Shown piece after piece: positions 20,928 to 28,499 of a stretch of 64,000 bases of DNA. A model generated the notes under the pieces. The model was not told the origin of the DNA and searched no databases. It saw only the letters and a list, made by a program, of their open reading frames with translations. Positions within the stretch are counted from its first letter, which is position 1, and each line of letters starts with the position of its first letter. A program made the translations under genes and the position numbers. Location: assembly GCF_000568815.1 (NCBI RefSeq), contig NZ_CP007201.1, positions 930,001-994,000 of the forward strand. Reading direction: 5' to 3'. This stretch comes from Sulfurospirillum multivorans DSM 12446. Lineage in GTDB: Bacteria > Campylobacterota > Campylobacteria > Campylobacterales > Sulfurospirillaceae.

Positions 20928-23789
20928 ATGGAAAACACAACAGCGCGTGCTCTAAACACGACCGTAGGTCGTAGATCATTTTTGAAAATGGCAGCATTGG
21001 GAAGCGTCTTTGGCGCAACATCAAGCTTTGCCAGTGAGAAAGTGACAAGAGCCGCAACAGAGGAAGAGGTCAAAGACCCGTTTCCTGGAAGCAAAAAAAT
21101 TAAGACCATCTGTACATCGTGTTCAGTCGGTTGTGGTGTGATCGCAGAAGTTCACAACGGTGTTTGGGTTCGTCAAGAAGTTGCTCAGGATCACCCAATT
21201 AGCCTTGGTGGACACTGTTGTAAGGGTGCTGATATGATCGATATGGTCAGATCAGAAGTGCGCCTCAAGTATCCAATGGAAAAAGTTAATGGTCAGTGGA
21301 AACGTCTCTCTTGGGATGAAGCGCTGAATCGCATTGCGAAAAAATTGAGTGAACTTAAGAAAAAAGATGGCGCTGATGCCGTTCAGTTCTTAGGCTCTGC
21401 CAAAATGAGCAATGAACAAGCCTACTACTTTAGAAAATTTGCCGCGTTTTTTGGTACAAACAATATAGATCACCAAGCACGAATTTGACACAGCTCCTCA
21501 GTCGCCGGTGTGGCGAATACATTAGGATATGGGTCAATGACAAACTCGTTTGGAGACATCCAAAATGCAAAATCTATCTTTATTATTGGTTGTAATCCAG
21601 CCGTTAATCACCCTGTAGGTTTTGGTCATATTTTAAAAGCAAAAGAGAGAAATAACGCAAAAATTATCGTTATTGATCCACGCTTCACAAAAAGTGCTGC
21701 AAAAGCAGACTATTTTGCACAAATTCGCCCCGGCACAGACATCCCTTTTGTCTATGGTATGCTACATATCATTTTTAAAAATGGTTGGGAAGATAAAAAA
21801 TACATCGAAGATCGCGTGTATGGTATGGATGAAATCAGAGCAGAAGCTGCCAAATGGACACCTCAAGTTGTTGCGGATGTTACAGGCGTTAGTGCAGAAA
21901 CTCTCATCGAAATCACAACCGTTTATGCGAAAAACTCTCCTGGTACGCTTCTTTGGGCAATGGGTTTAACCCAACACACCATCGGTACAGGAAACACACG
22001 TATTGCTCCTATTCTTCAAATGGCACTGGGCTATATGGGAAAAGCAGGTGGTGGTACGAACATTCTTAGAGGTCACGACAACGTTCAAGGTGCAACCGAT
22101 ATGGGATGTTTATCGGACACACTTCCTGGCTATTACGGTTTGGTGGAAGGCTCATGGAAATACTACGCACGCATGTGGGGTGTGGAGTATGACTACATCA
22201 AATCACAGTTTAAAGATGCTTCATGGATGGGAAAACCAGGCTTTACGTTAGCACGTTGGTGGGCAGGCGTTCTCGCTGGAAAACCGGGTGAAGATGCGAT
22301 TGAAAATGCAGGAACCAATCTTAAAGCGCTTGTCGTTATGGGCTGTGGCATCACGTCAACCTCTCAAAATCTTAAAATCCAACAAGGTCTTGATAACCTA
22401 GAACTTTTGGTCATTGCCGATCCGTTTGTGAACGAAGCAGCAATTTTGACCAATCGAAAAGACAATCTTTTCATCTTGCCTTCCGCGACACAGTTTGAAA
22501 GCAGTGGTACCGTTTCAGCAACCAACCGAAGTGCGCAGTGGCGTTCTAAAGTGGTGGAGCCTCTTTATGAGAGCAAGCCTGATCAAGAGATTATGTTTGA
22601 ACTTGCCAAGCGTTTAGGGTTTTATGAAGAGTACACCCGTTCGATGATGATGAACCTCAAAAGCGATGGTTATCTTGAAATGACACTTAATAAAAAAACA
22701 TTCCAGTGGCCTGAAGATGCGACGATTGAGATTTCGCGAACCCTTAGAACCATTGGTATGATGGGTTGGACACCTGAACGTATTAAAAAACACACCGATA
22801 ACTGGCATCTGTTTGATGAAATCACGGGTGCAGGAAAAGGCGAGATGAAGGGCGAGTATTACGGTCTTCCATGGCCATGCTGGAGTGTAAAACACGGCGG
22901 TACACCAAACCTTTATAACGTCGATGTGCCTGTAAGCGAAGGCGGTATGGGCTTTAGAAATAACTTTGGTTTGGAAAAAGATGGCGTGAGCCTGCTTGCG
23001 GGTAATGGTTCAGCGCCACTAGATTCAAAAGTCAATGGCGGATACCCTGAAATTACCAAAGAGAACATCGAAAAACTCATTGGAAGAACGCTTAGTGCCT
23101 CTGAAAAAGATCTTTGTGGTGCGAACTGGAAAACATGTACGAGTGGTAAATTGGTTGATTTAGCACTTGAAGCTGGATTGACACCTTATGGAAATGCTAA
23201 GGCGCGCGCCGTTGTTTGGACGTTCCCTGATCGCATTCCACTTCACCGTGAGCCACTCTATTCTCCACGTCCTGATTTGGTTGAAAAATACCCAACGTAT
23301 GCGGACAAGCAGAACCATTTCCGTGTGACCACAAAGTATGCAACGATACAAAAAGAGAAAGACTACACCAAAGAGTTCCCGATCGTCATGACAACCGGTC
23401 GTTTGGTTACGATGATGGGTGCTGGTTTGGAAAACAGAGCCTCAAAATACATTTGTGCCTTAACGCCAGAGATGTTCTGCGACATTCATCCTGATTTGGC
23501 AGGCAAAAACGGCATCCAAAACGGTCACATGATGTGGGTACACTCTCCAGCAGGTACCAAAATCAAAGTAAAGGCGAAGTATTCGTACACCGTTTTACCG
23601 AATATGGTCTTTTTACCGTTCCACTTCGGAGGCTTTATGCAAGGTGTGGACATGACGGGCAATTTCCCAGCAGGAACGAAGCCTTATGCCAGCGGTGAAT
23701 GTGCCAATACGGTTGTGAGTTATGGGTATGACATCATTACGCAGATTCCTGCATCTAAAGCGGGTTTATGCCGCGTAGAGAAAGCGTAG
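20928..23789 (+). CDS. fdhA: Formate dehydrogenase catalytic subunit, selenocysteine-containing
   Basis: 953 residues if the TGA at 21486-21488 is read as selenocysteine (Sec187). The N-terminus is a twin-arginine signal (GRRSFLKMAALGSVFG), followed by the [4Fe-4S] motif CTSCSVGCG...HCCKG. The residues just before the TGA (NIDHQARI) and after it (HSSSVAGVANT) are the conserved flanks of the active-site Cys/Sec in formate dehydrogenases, where the residue binds molybdenum or tungsten. The frame continues unbroken to 23789 and ends in a typical dinucleotide-binding domain. It oxidises formate in the periplasm and passes electrons through FdhB and FdhC to menaquinone. Without Sec insertion the product would stop at 186 residues. 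Confidence 0.95.
21486..21525 (+). promoter_or_regulatory. SECIS-like hairpin directing selenocysteine insertion
   Basis: Directly after the TGA, a stem TCGCC / GGCGA (21502-21506 with 21512-21516) closes a GGTGT loop. The loop begins 18 bases after the UGA, the same spacing and a very similar loop (GGUCU) to the E. coli fdhF SECIS element that SelB recognises. Confidence 0.8.
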
Positions 23790-23799
23790 GGGGCACATG

Positions 23800-24402
23800 A
23801 TGGAAAACGCTAGAATGAAATTTTACTGCGATGAGAGCAGATGTATTGAGTGTGATGGATGCAGCATTGCTTGTGCGGAAGCGCATGAGTTGCCTGCTGG
23901 AATTGCACGCAGAAAAGTGATTACGATTCATGAGGGAATTCCTGGAAAAGAGGTCTCTACTTCGATTGCATGTATGCACTGTACGGACGCTCCATGTGAG
24001 CAGGTTTGCCCCGTAGATTGTTTCTACATTCGCGAAGACGGTGTGGTGCTTCATGATAAAGAGAAGTGTATCGGTTGTGGATACTGCTTATACGCATGCC
24101 CATTTGGTGCACCTCAGTTTCCACGAGAGGGTATTTTTGGCTCAAAAGGTGCGATGGATAAATGTACGATGTGTGCAGGAGGTCCACTTGCGACCAATTC
24201 ACATCATGAATTTGAACTGTATGGTCAAAACCGTATTGCTGAGGGAAAAGTTCCTGTATGTGCAGCGATGTGTTCAACCAAAGCACTTTTAGTCGGTGAT
24301 GCGCAGTCCGTGTCCAATGTCATCAGAGAGCGTGTTACGGCTCGTGGCGGAAAAGGTATAAACTCATCGTACGGATGGGATAAAGCCTATAAAAACCAAT
24401 GA
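23800..24402 (+). CDS. fdhB: Formate dehydrogenase iron-sulfur subunit
   Basis: 200 residues. Four ferredoxin-type cysteine groups: CIECDGCSIAC, CMHCTDAPCEQVC, CIGCGYCLYAC, and CTMC...CAAMC. It carries electrons from FdhA to the membrane cytochrome b. The ATG at 23800 follows an ATG at 23797; GGGGG lies upstream. The spacing to fdhA is 10 bp, and its stop overlaps the following frame (ATGA). Confidence 0.95.
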   Translation: MENARMKFYCDESRCIECDGCSIACAEAHELPAGIARRKVITIHEGIPGKEVSTSIACMHCTDAPCEQVCPVDCFYIREDGVVLHDKEKCIGCGYCLYACPFGAPQFPREGIFGSKGAMDKCTMCAGGPLATNSHHEFELYGQNRIAEGKVPVCAAMCSTKALLVGDAQSVSNVIRERVTARGGKGINSSYGWDKAYKNQ

Positions 24403-24413
24403 AAGGAATAGCA

Positions 24414-25313
24414 ATGAGAAAGTATTTTTACGCACTCATTGCGCTCCTAAGTTTGGCTACGGTGGCATTGGCTACCAATAGTCAAATCTGGGGTGAAATG
24501 CGTATACAAAATATTTTAGGGTACGGACAAGAAGAGAGCTTAAAATTAGGCGCTTGGTTTACTTTATTGCAAAGCAAATACTTTGCATGGGTGTTTTTAG
24601 GGGTACTGATCGGTGTTCCGACCGTCTTTTTCTTACACTATAAAATTATAGGACAAAAAGTATTTCCACACAGTCATAATAAACATTATGCCTTTAATCT
24701 GTTCCATAGAACGGTTCACCAAATCGCGGCAGTTAGCTTTTTGGTGATTATCCCCACAGGATTTATTATCGTGTTTGGTGATTTCTTTGGGGGTGGTACA
24801 CTTGTGAGAATGGCAAAAAACCTTCATGGAATTTTCACCATTCCGTTTGCCATTGTCATTATTCCCATGGCACTTATGTGGATTAAAGAGGCGATTTTTA
24901 ATCTGGAAGATATTAAATGGTTCATGATCTTAGGAGGGTATCTCTCTAAAGAAAAACGCATCATCAACGCAACCCAATTTAACGCAGGTCAAAAGATGTG
25001 GTATTGGGTCTGTATTTTGGGTGGTTTAGTCATGATTTTAAGTGGTGCGATGATGTTCTTTATGGACTTTAAAATCGAGATGTTGCATAACCTTACGGGT
25101 TTGAGCCACATTGATATGTTAAGAGCTTCTGCTATTATCCATAATGTTATGGGCTTTATTTTAGTAGCTGTCTTCTTTACGCATATTTATATGGCAGCGG
25201 TTGCGATTAAGGGTGCCATTCACAGCATCATCACGGGTTACGTCGAAGAAGAGGAAGTCAAATTCCTTCACAATGCGTGGTATAAAAAGCTTAAGGAAAA
25301 AGGCAAGTTTTAG
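24414..25313 (+). CDS. fdhC: Formate dehydrogenase cytochrome b subunit (membrane anchor)
   Basis: 299 residues with an N-terminal export-like segment, about four to five membrane helices, and heme-ligand histidines in FHRTVHQIAAVS, NLHGIFT and IIHNVMGFILVAVFFTHIY. This is the FdnI-like gamma subunit that reduces menaquinone. ATG 24414 is preceded by AAGGA with proper spacing; an ATG at 24399 overlapping the fdhB stop is possible but lacks that site. Confidence 0.92.
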   Translation: MRKYFYALIALLSLATVALATNSQIWGEMRIQNILGYGQEESLKLGAWFTLLQSKYFAWVFLGVLIGVPTVFFLHYKIIGQKVFPHSHNKHYAFNLFHRTVHQIAAVSFLVIIPTGFIIVFGDFFGGGTLVRMAKNLHGIFTIPFAIVIIPMALMWIKEAIFNLEDIKWFMILGGYLSKEKRIINATQFNAGQKMWYWVCILGGLVMILSGAMMFFMDFKIEMLHNLTGLSHIDMLRASAIIHNVMGFILVAVFFTHIYMAAVAIKGAIHSIITGYVEEEEVKFLHNAWYKKLKEKGKF

Positions 25314-25377: not shown

Positions 25378-25406
25378 TTGCGATTTTCAAACTTCTGTGC
25401 TATACT
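25378..25406 (+). promoter_or_regulatory. Sigma70 promoter of the leu leader
   Basis: TTGCGA (25378-25383), 17-base spacer, TATACT (25401-25406), with a TG two bases before the -10 box. It lies 28 bases ahead of the leader-peptide ATG. Confidence 0.75.
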
Positions 25407-25434
25407 TTTGTCAAATTTTCTTAAAGGAGAACCG

Positions 25435-25536
25435 ATGGCAACTTTTATATCCCATCACACCATACACCAACCTCAGAGCATAGCGCAATTTTCTAACGCA
25501 TCACTCGTCGTCGTCCTCCTCCTGAAGCTCCGTTAA
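25435..25536 (+). CDS. Leader peptide with Val-Val-Val-Leu-Leu-Leu run, leuA attenuator
   Basis: 33 residues with a good ribosome-binding site (AAAGGAG, 6-7 bases before ATG). Near the end the codons are GTC GTC GTC CTC CTC CTG, giving SLVVVLLLKLR and then stop; isoleucines occur earlier. It lies between a strong promoter and leuA. This is the design of a transcription-attenuation leader (as in leu and ilv operons of enterobacteria): ribosome stalling at scarce Val/Leu tRNAs would favour an antiterminator. It is likely an untransported regulatory peptide with no other role. Confidence 0.82.
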   Translation: MATFISHHTIHQPQSIAQFSNASLVVVLLLKLR

Positions 25537-25715
25537 CACTTCACACTCACCCCTTTATTTTCACTGTTGATTTTTAAATTGGCTTTTTAGCCCTGAGGAT
25601 ACCTCTACCTAATTAGCACAATTTTATTCATTTTCATTGCTGTTTTTCTTGCCATGACGCAAGATTTTTCTGCCTATATGAGCTATTGGCTCATTCATAA
25701 CTTAAGGATATTTCT
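25537..25715 (+). promoter_or_regulatory. Attenuator region of leuA
   Basis: After the leader peptide the RNA can form several hairpins: GGCT-TTTT-AGCC near 25580-25595, a terminator-like TCTTGC / GCAAGA followed by five T (25647-25669), and ATGAGC-TATTG-GCTCAT (25678-25694) just before the leuA ribosome-binding site (TAAGGA). The middle one is the best candidate for the attenuating terminator. The exact antiterminator pairing needs folding software. Confidence 0.55.
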
Positions 25716-27823: not shown

Positions 27824-27881
27824 GCCCTAAAAGGCACTCTGTGATAAAATGACTCTATTATTTCACTCTGAAGGCTCTGTT

Positions 27882-28499
27882 ATGATAAGCGTAGAATTTC
27901 TGATCACATCATTGATTGTGGTGCTGATTCCTGGTACGGGTGTTTTGTTTACCATTTCAACAGGATTGGCGCAAGGTCGAAAAGCCAGTGTGTATGCTGC
28001 CCTTGGGTGCACAGCAGGCATTGTGCCGCATCTTTTAGCAACGATTTTTGGGCTTGCTGCCATTATGCACACGAGTGCTCTGGCGTTTGAAGTCTTGAAA
28101 ATTGCAGGTGTTATGTATCTGTTTTATCTGGCATACATGACATGGAAGGACAAAAGTGGTTTTGAAGCTCAAGCTATTTCTACGCGTTCTAGTGCGCTCT
28201 CTTTGGCGACCAAAGCGTTTTTGCTGAACATTCTCAATCCCAAATTGACCATCTTCTTTTTGGCATTTTTACCACAATTTGTCTCGCCTGAAACGACATC
28301 ACCACTGGGTGATATGGTAATGTTAAGTGCGGTGTTTATGCTGATGACATTTGTGGTGTTTGTGATCTACGGTCTTTTAGCGCATGGGTTTCGTCAAAGC
28401 GTGATGGAATCACACCGTGTTCAAACATGGTTACGCCGTGGTTTTGCACTGACCTTTGCAGGACTTGGTCTACAGTTGGCGTCTTCAACGCAGAAGTAA
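27882..28499 (+). CDS. LysE/RhtB-family amino acid exporter
   Basis: 205 residues with about six membrane helices. The N-terminus EFLITSLIVVLIPGTGVLFTIS with its P-G-x-x motif, followed by GRKASVYAALGCTAGIVPH, is the LysE/RhtB signature. Substrate unknown. ATG 27882 is preferred to an upstream ATG at 27849 because the signature begins right after it. Confidence 0.88.
   Translation: MISVEFLITSLIVVLIPGTGVLFTISTGLAQGRKASVYAALGCTAGIVPHLLATIFGLAAIMHTSALAFEVLKIAGVMYLFYLAYMTWKDKSGFEAQAISTRSSALSLATKAFLLNILNPKLTIFFLAFLPQFVSPETTSPLGDMVMLSAVFMLMTFVVFVIYGLLAHGFRQSVMESHRVQTWLRRGFALTFAGLGLQLASSTQK

Follow-up and report, generated by a model that had tools for sequence, protein, structure and literature searches.

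Organization of the locus and its target gene

The stretch of DNA analysed, referred to as the window, comprises 64,000 nucleotides and forms part of the 3,175,729-base chromosome of Sulfurospirillum multivorans DSM 12446. Within it, a cytochrome b561-type gene (24399-25313) is followed by a predicted promoter, a 33-codon open reading frame (ORF), a spacer of about 180 nt and leuA (Table 1). The named relatives in which LeuA is 94-98% identical are all members of Sulfurospirillum. A first-pass annotation of the DNA, made from the sequence alone, had described the promoter as near consensus; the elements TTGCGA-17-TATACT and the TG ahead of the -10 are present and the block CTGTGCTATACT is kept throughout the genus alignment, although the promoter scan taken by itself is at chance level, with 3 sites found versus 2.3 expected from shuffles. 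Transcription is expected to start at about 25412-25414.

The ribosome-binding site AAAGGAG lies 5' of the leader ATG, and the end of the frame is occupied by a run of control codons, CTC GTC GTC GTC CTC CTC CTG, the first of which had been missed previously. Leucine is encoded at codons 24, 28-30 and 32. With Leu and Val together accounting for 16% of codons here, the chance of six consecutive Leu/Val codons is about 1.7e-5 at any given position. Neither CTC nor GTC is notably rare, since they make up 15% and 23% of their respective codon families. None of the 4227 Rfam families matched the leader region at E<=1.

Table 1. Features of the leader region and the gene downstream, in window coordinates.
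Feature	Position	Strand	Basis or remarks
Predicted sigma70 promoter, extended -10 (TG-C-TATACT)	25378..25406	+	consensus scan; genus alignment
Leader peptide ORF, 33 codons, MATFISHHTIHQPQSIAQFSNASLVVVLLLKLR*	25435..25536	+	sequence; relatives; synonymous-site conservation
Antiterminator strand A1, CCUCAG (leader codons 13-14)	25471..25476	+	duplex energy, shuffles; 98.9% of alignment cells paired
Leader hairpin GAG..GCG-CAAUUUUCUAA-CGC..CUC	25476..25506	+	changes on both sides; folding model
Antiterminator strand A2, CAAUUU (leader codons 18-19)	25486..25491	+	duplex energy, shuffles, pairing count
Control codons 24-30 (Leu, Val x3, Leu x3)	25504..25524	+	sequence
Small hairpin UGAAG/CUUCA spanning the leader stop codon	25523..25543	+	94.7% of alignment cells paired
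Proposed attenuator terminator AAAUUG-GCU-UU-UUAG-(CCCU)-GAGG-AUA-CCUC-(UAC)-CUAA-UU-AGC-A-CAAUUU	25576..25624	+	consensus structure; then U-rich to about 25638
Distal hairpin CUUGC..GCAAG + UUUUU	25647..25669	+	in 13/16 relatives; terminator of the first-pass annotation
leuA, short type-2 2-isopropylmalate synthase, 441 aa	25716..27041	+	HMGL-like + IPMS_D2, no LeuA_dimer domain

The gene named earlier as the target, leuA, is a short, second paralogue. Its product matches the yeast/PRK03739-type 2-isopropylmalate synthase up to position 431 of 550, whereas its match to NF042434, the Leptospira LeuA2 subfamily, falls far below the cut-off. The main LeuA is encoded elsewhere in the same genome and is a full-length, bacterial-type enzyme of 519 aa that includes LeuA_dimer. 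The missing LeuA_dimer domain suggests that the 441-aa LeuA may be insensitive to leucine. The main leuA has a leader of its own, MNSVDIGIMKSIKNLPKIEIKNALLQNLLCF, which by eye is not alike to that of the short leuA. In this main leader (G000:C1 near 2364500, L002), the terminal Leu codons lead directly into CCCC and a T-rich stretch, no obvious hairpin terminator was seen, and in several species a 5' hairpin, GAGGTAAA..TTTACCTC, lies ahead of the ribosome-binding site. The 400 nt upstream of the acetohydroxyacid synthase gene of the same genome contained no obvious branched-chain leader.

Conservation of the leader in Sulfurospirillum and its wider distribution

The leader frame, with its ribosome-binding site, is found as a single copy directly 5' of the gene in all 17 Sulfurospirillum genomes with the short leuA, and is absent from the 7 Sulfurospirillum genomes without it as well as from 20 further genomes of the same family. 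In the alignment of 15 species, which are close relatives, the Val/Leu content of the run is retained in every one and the order of residues varies, giving SLVVVLLLKLR, SVLVVLLLKLR, SLLVVLLKKLR and SLVVVLLSKLR. Across the same species, 7 of 12 fourfold-degenerate sites are invariant in the leader versus 7 of 104 in leuA, and conserved residues keep one and the same codon in 13 of 22 cases versus 50 of 290. Such invariance implies selection on the nucleotide sequence too, around codons 13, 17, 20, 26-28 and 32, and, as judged from the alignment, the constraint is one on RNA or codon choice. The case that the leader exceeds chance is carried by this conservation, that is, by the linkage to the short leuA and by the synonymous sites.

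Among 299 genomes sampled from the order, 82 contained this leuA type. Under a fixed rule for leaders (an ATG, a ribosome-binding site and at least five Leu/Val among the last 12 residues), 24 of the 71 loci outside the genus at which the upstream DNA was read carried one, compared with about 0.4 in shuffles. These leaders, which belong to several Campylobacterota families, are Leu-only in character, as in NRALLLRLLLSL and KSLLLLSLFLLRL, and have a Leu run in common but not their sequence. In the closest relative beyond the 17 genomes (L041; LeuA 75% identical), the leader contains FLLSLLLQLQ. Since the related leaders are Leu-only, the valine triplet is probably a Sulfurospirillum addition. 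The idea that a leader accompanies only those leuA genes that lack the feedback domain was rejected: the full-length LeuA of family f7 has a leader in 13 of 13 cases, and 12 of 17 truncated leuA genes of family f9 have none by the same rule.

Predicted competing RNA structures

In the consensus fold, the candidate terminator is a three-part hairpin with an A/U-rich stem base. Its pairs are formed in 97.6% of alignment cells, as against 32-62% after sliding the partners, and its helix has an energy of -11 to -15 kcal/mol. Because these pairs hardly vary, covariation neither proves nor disproves the terminator; the terminator scan of the window did not flag it because its hairpin loop is above the limit of the scan. 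L018, the most divergent species, has the stem rebuilt as ten uninterrupted pairs.

The 5' arm of this hairpin is also complementary to RNA within the leader frame. A1 pairs with CUGAGG (25593-25598) and A2 with AAAUUG (25576-25581), the two pairings being nested and together complementing the arm. For all but one of the 15 species, the resulting duplex has an energy of -15 to -22 kcal/mol, and the antiterminator strand is the best match among all upstream segments; when either strand was shuffled, 0-18 of 2000 trials matched this energy in the three species tested. In L016, CCUCAGAGC pairs gaplessly with GCUCUGAGG. The exception is L018, the only species in which the A2 pairing is broken, where the duplex is weak (-7.9 kcal/mol) and about one third of shuffles reach the same energy. 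In one metagenome-assembled genome (L037, 1550-1850), a deletion seems to have removed the promoter together with the last part of the gene before it, and CUGAGG is changed to CAGAGG; the attenuator may have been lost naturally there, or the assembly may be faulty.

A predicted leader hairpin, with CAAUUUUCUAA in its loop, sequesters the antiterminator strand, and its 3' arm lies under the ribosome when the control codons are being read. As for the compensatory changes proposed earlier as a check, two pairs in the outer stem of this hairpin have both partners altered in three sequences, of which two also carry the Val/Leu swap at codons 24-25; among the terminator and antiterminator pairs of the 15 close relatives there were no double changes.

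Ribosome position and the proposed mechanism

The influence of the ribosome was modelled by masking a 31-nt footprint at each codon in turn and folding the nascent RNA to just before the 3' arm of the terminator, the scan being an equilibrium folding of the partial transcript. Without a ribosome, the median antiterminator probability was 0.06. It fell to 0.00 for P-site positions at codons 8-19, rose to 0.96-0.99 at codons 23-29, was still 0.67 at codon 33 and dropped to 0.17 once the stop was reached. The folding model frees the antiterminator strand mainly when the ribosome is on the Val/Leu codons, a pattern seen in 14 of 15 species, and a stall at Val or at Leu has the same modelled outcome. 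When the whole leader is folded at equilibrium, the terminator dominates in most species despite a stalled ribosome (mean T 0.74), from which it follows that the switch must be kinetic, with the antiterminator trapped.

Taken together, these features make it likely that the leader is a ribosome-mediated transcription attenuator governed by the supply of valyl- and leucyl-tRNA. RNA polymerase would initiate at about 25412 and a ribosome would begin to translate the leader. With charged Val- or Leu-tRNA scarce, the ribosome would stall at codons 24-30 and mask the 3' arm of the leader hairpin, leaving CCUCAG...CAAUUU (codons 13-19) single-stranded behind it and able to pair with the emerging AAAUUG...CUGAGG; the terminator could then not form and, as proposed, leuA would be transcribed. 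With Val and Leu plentiful, the ribosome would reach the stop codon and leave, the leader hairpin would refold, and formation of the terminator would end transcription before leuA. The Val/Leu leader-peptide attenuator suggested in the first-pass annotation is well supported by comparative evidence. From this evidence, the attenuator is judged to be real and conserved and is most likely of the transcriptional type, and it very probably turns the short leuA on when Val or Leu runs short.

Alternative explanations

The hairpin originally regarded as the terminator, located further downstream, exists together with its U run. It is a weak one of 6 pairs, and comparable numbers of such sites arise in shuffles. 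Val/Leu sensing might operate as above with transcription stopping at this distal hairpin, the upstream helix serving as a pause or accessory element. Of 16 relatives, 13 have the distal hairpin, and its spacing is constant: it follows a conserved CCTCT by 41 nt, or by 189 nt where an insert is present. Its closing pair shows a G-C to U-A exchange among relatives. It is, however, missing from three of the 16 relatives compared (L034, L015 and L018) that retain the leader, while the upstream helix is universal, and no upstream strand was seen that would compete with it; such an arrangement is considered unlikely. The distal hairpin is thus probably not the attenuator terminator, a role for which the conserved hairpin at 25576-25624 and the antiterminator that matches it are more convincing; the distal one may act as a backup (second) terminator or a processing site. 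Several species also carry inserts resembling repeats in the spacer 5' of leuA; these are about 100-150 nt long, contain inverted repeats and lie between the terminator and leuA in L033, L035, L036 and L015 and after the distal hairpin in L011 and L017.

Termination could instead depend on Rho, which would load on the C-rich, G-poor CACTTCACACTCACCCC past the stop codon once ribosomes leave and would be blocked by a stalled one. The composition of the RNA 3' of the leader stop would suit this, as would the main leuA leader with its CCCC-T runs past the stop and no obvious hairpin terminator; the Rho model nevertheless leaves the conserved terminator and antiterminator pairings and the synonymous conservation of codons 13-20 unexplained, and we regard it as distinctly improbable. 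Translational control is less probable again; here a Shine-Dalgarno sequence would be held in a duplex with the run of Leu codons, or with the 5' end, until a stalled ribosome released it. Such control would resemble the actinobacterial LEU element, in which a leader frame with Leu codons lies 5' of leuA and these codons pair with the leuA Shine-Dalgarno sequence in a pseudoknot (PMC1262725). Both systems share complementarity between Leu codons and a Shine-Dalgarno sequence, which here is that of CTC CTC to the leader AAGGAG. In the minimum-energy fold, the Shine-Dalgarno region of leuA is paired with the 5' end. The locus studied here differs in its terminator-like hairpin and long spacer; the leuA site is about 180 nt past the leader, a distance that speaks against such a pseudoknot, and repeat inserts intervene in several leader-bearing species. 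A functional small protein, rather than a regulatory leader, as the product of the ORF would agree with the conservation of the 33-aa sequence in the genus, but is hardly credible given that codon conservation exceeds the needs of protein-coding constraint and that only the Leu run is common to the leaders of other families.

Relation to known systems

The transcriptional attenuator favoured here can be compared with several leaders. In the textbook trp and leu attenuators, the RNA strand that is freed lies downstream of the stalled ribosome. E. coli leuL (leuABCD) combines a leader peptide with competing hairpins to control leuA and has Leu codons only, whereas in Sulfurospirillum the freed strand would lie upstream of the ribosome, inside the frame already translated, and the codons are those of Val and Leu. 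Mixed Val/Leu control codons are also found in E. coli ivbL (ilvBN), which governs acetohydroxyacid synthase, while the target here is isopropylmalate synthase.

The first-pass annotation had supposed that there was little or no description of such control in this phylum. This is incorrect, as the 2013 prediction of LeuL in Campylobacter jejuni and Ribo-seq data from 2025 precede it. According to the 2013 report, LeuL leaders were predicted for C. jejuni and for the majority of those Epsilonproteobacteria that have leucine genes, and the C. jejuni leuL RNA stops shortly 3' of its stop codon (PMC3847290); translation initiation of C. jejuni LeuL has since been mapped by Ribo-seq (PMC11955535). 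LeuL and the leader described here are alike in being short ORFs with terminal Leu codons that lie 5' of a 2-isopropylmalate synthase gene in the same phylum, and the main leuA of Sulfurospirillum carries a leader of the LeuL kind. The 33-aa leader falls within the LeuL size class (20-35 aa, several Leu near the C-terminus) but precedes the short leuA, and it is unlike LeuL in its leuA subfamily, its combination of Val and Leu codons, its unrelated sequence and its assignable terminator and antiterminator. A partial literature search covering main texts gave no description of a leader before the short leuA; neither the leader at this leuA copy nor its combination of codons and arrangement of the RNA seems to have been described before. 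A second isopropylmalate synthase without the allosteric domain, beside a full-length one, is known as LeuA2 from Leptospira, where it is superoxide-induced (PMC12345160); both organisms thus have a domain-less second LeuA, from different subfamilies.

Neighbouring genes

A trans-aconitate-methyltransferase-like gene lies within about 30 nt 3' of the short leuA in 9 of the 17 genomes (L033:3334-4095, with equivalents in G004, G005, G006, G007, G011, G012, G014 and G017), and is absent from the 7 Sulfurospirillum genomes without the short leuA and from the genome to which the window belongs. In three genomes of family f17 (L114-L116), a leader-controlled LeuA is fused with a related methyltransferase domain in a protein of 682 aa. 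Isopropylmalate or a relative is possibly methylated by the neighbouring enzyme. A broader reading, to which we give little weight, combines a mirrored attenuator, its freed strand behind the ribosome in the translated frame, with joint sensing of Val and Leu and with a synthase that lacks the feedback domain and that, in related genomes, has a trans-aconitate-methyltransferase-like enzyme encoded after it or fused to it. If this were true, the operon might make or modify isopropylmalate, for example as a methyl ester, during branched-chain shortage, beyond only making more leucine.

Two genes 3' of leuA, the window contains a LysE-type exporter gene (27849-28499). Many relatives keep such a gene close to their short leuA, and a MOSC-domain gene frequently lies between the two. 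At 20928-23789, a formate-dehydrogenase-like protein is, by eye, encoded as two in-frame ORFs split by a TGA after DHQARI, which is probably a selenocysteine codon.

Implications

With the proposed attenuator, leader-peptide attenuation in Campylobacterota would reach beyond the main leucine operon and include a second leuA type, and the control codons change from Leu-only to mixed Val and Leu within one phylum. An enzyme apparently without leucine feedback inhibition would be controlled at the RNA level, so that attenuation can be tested directly in this group.
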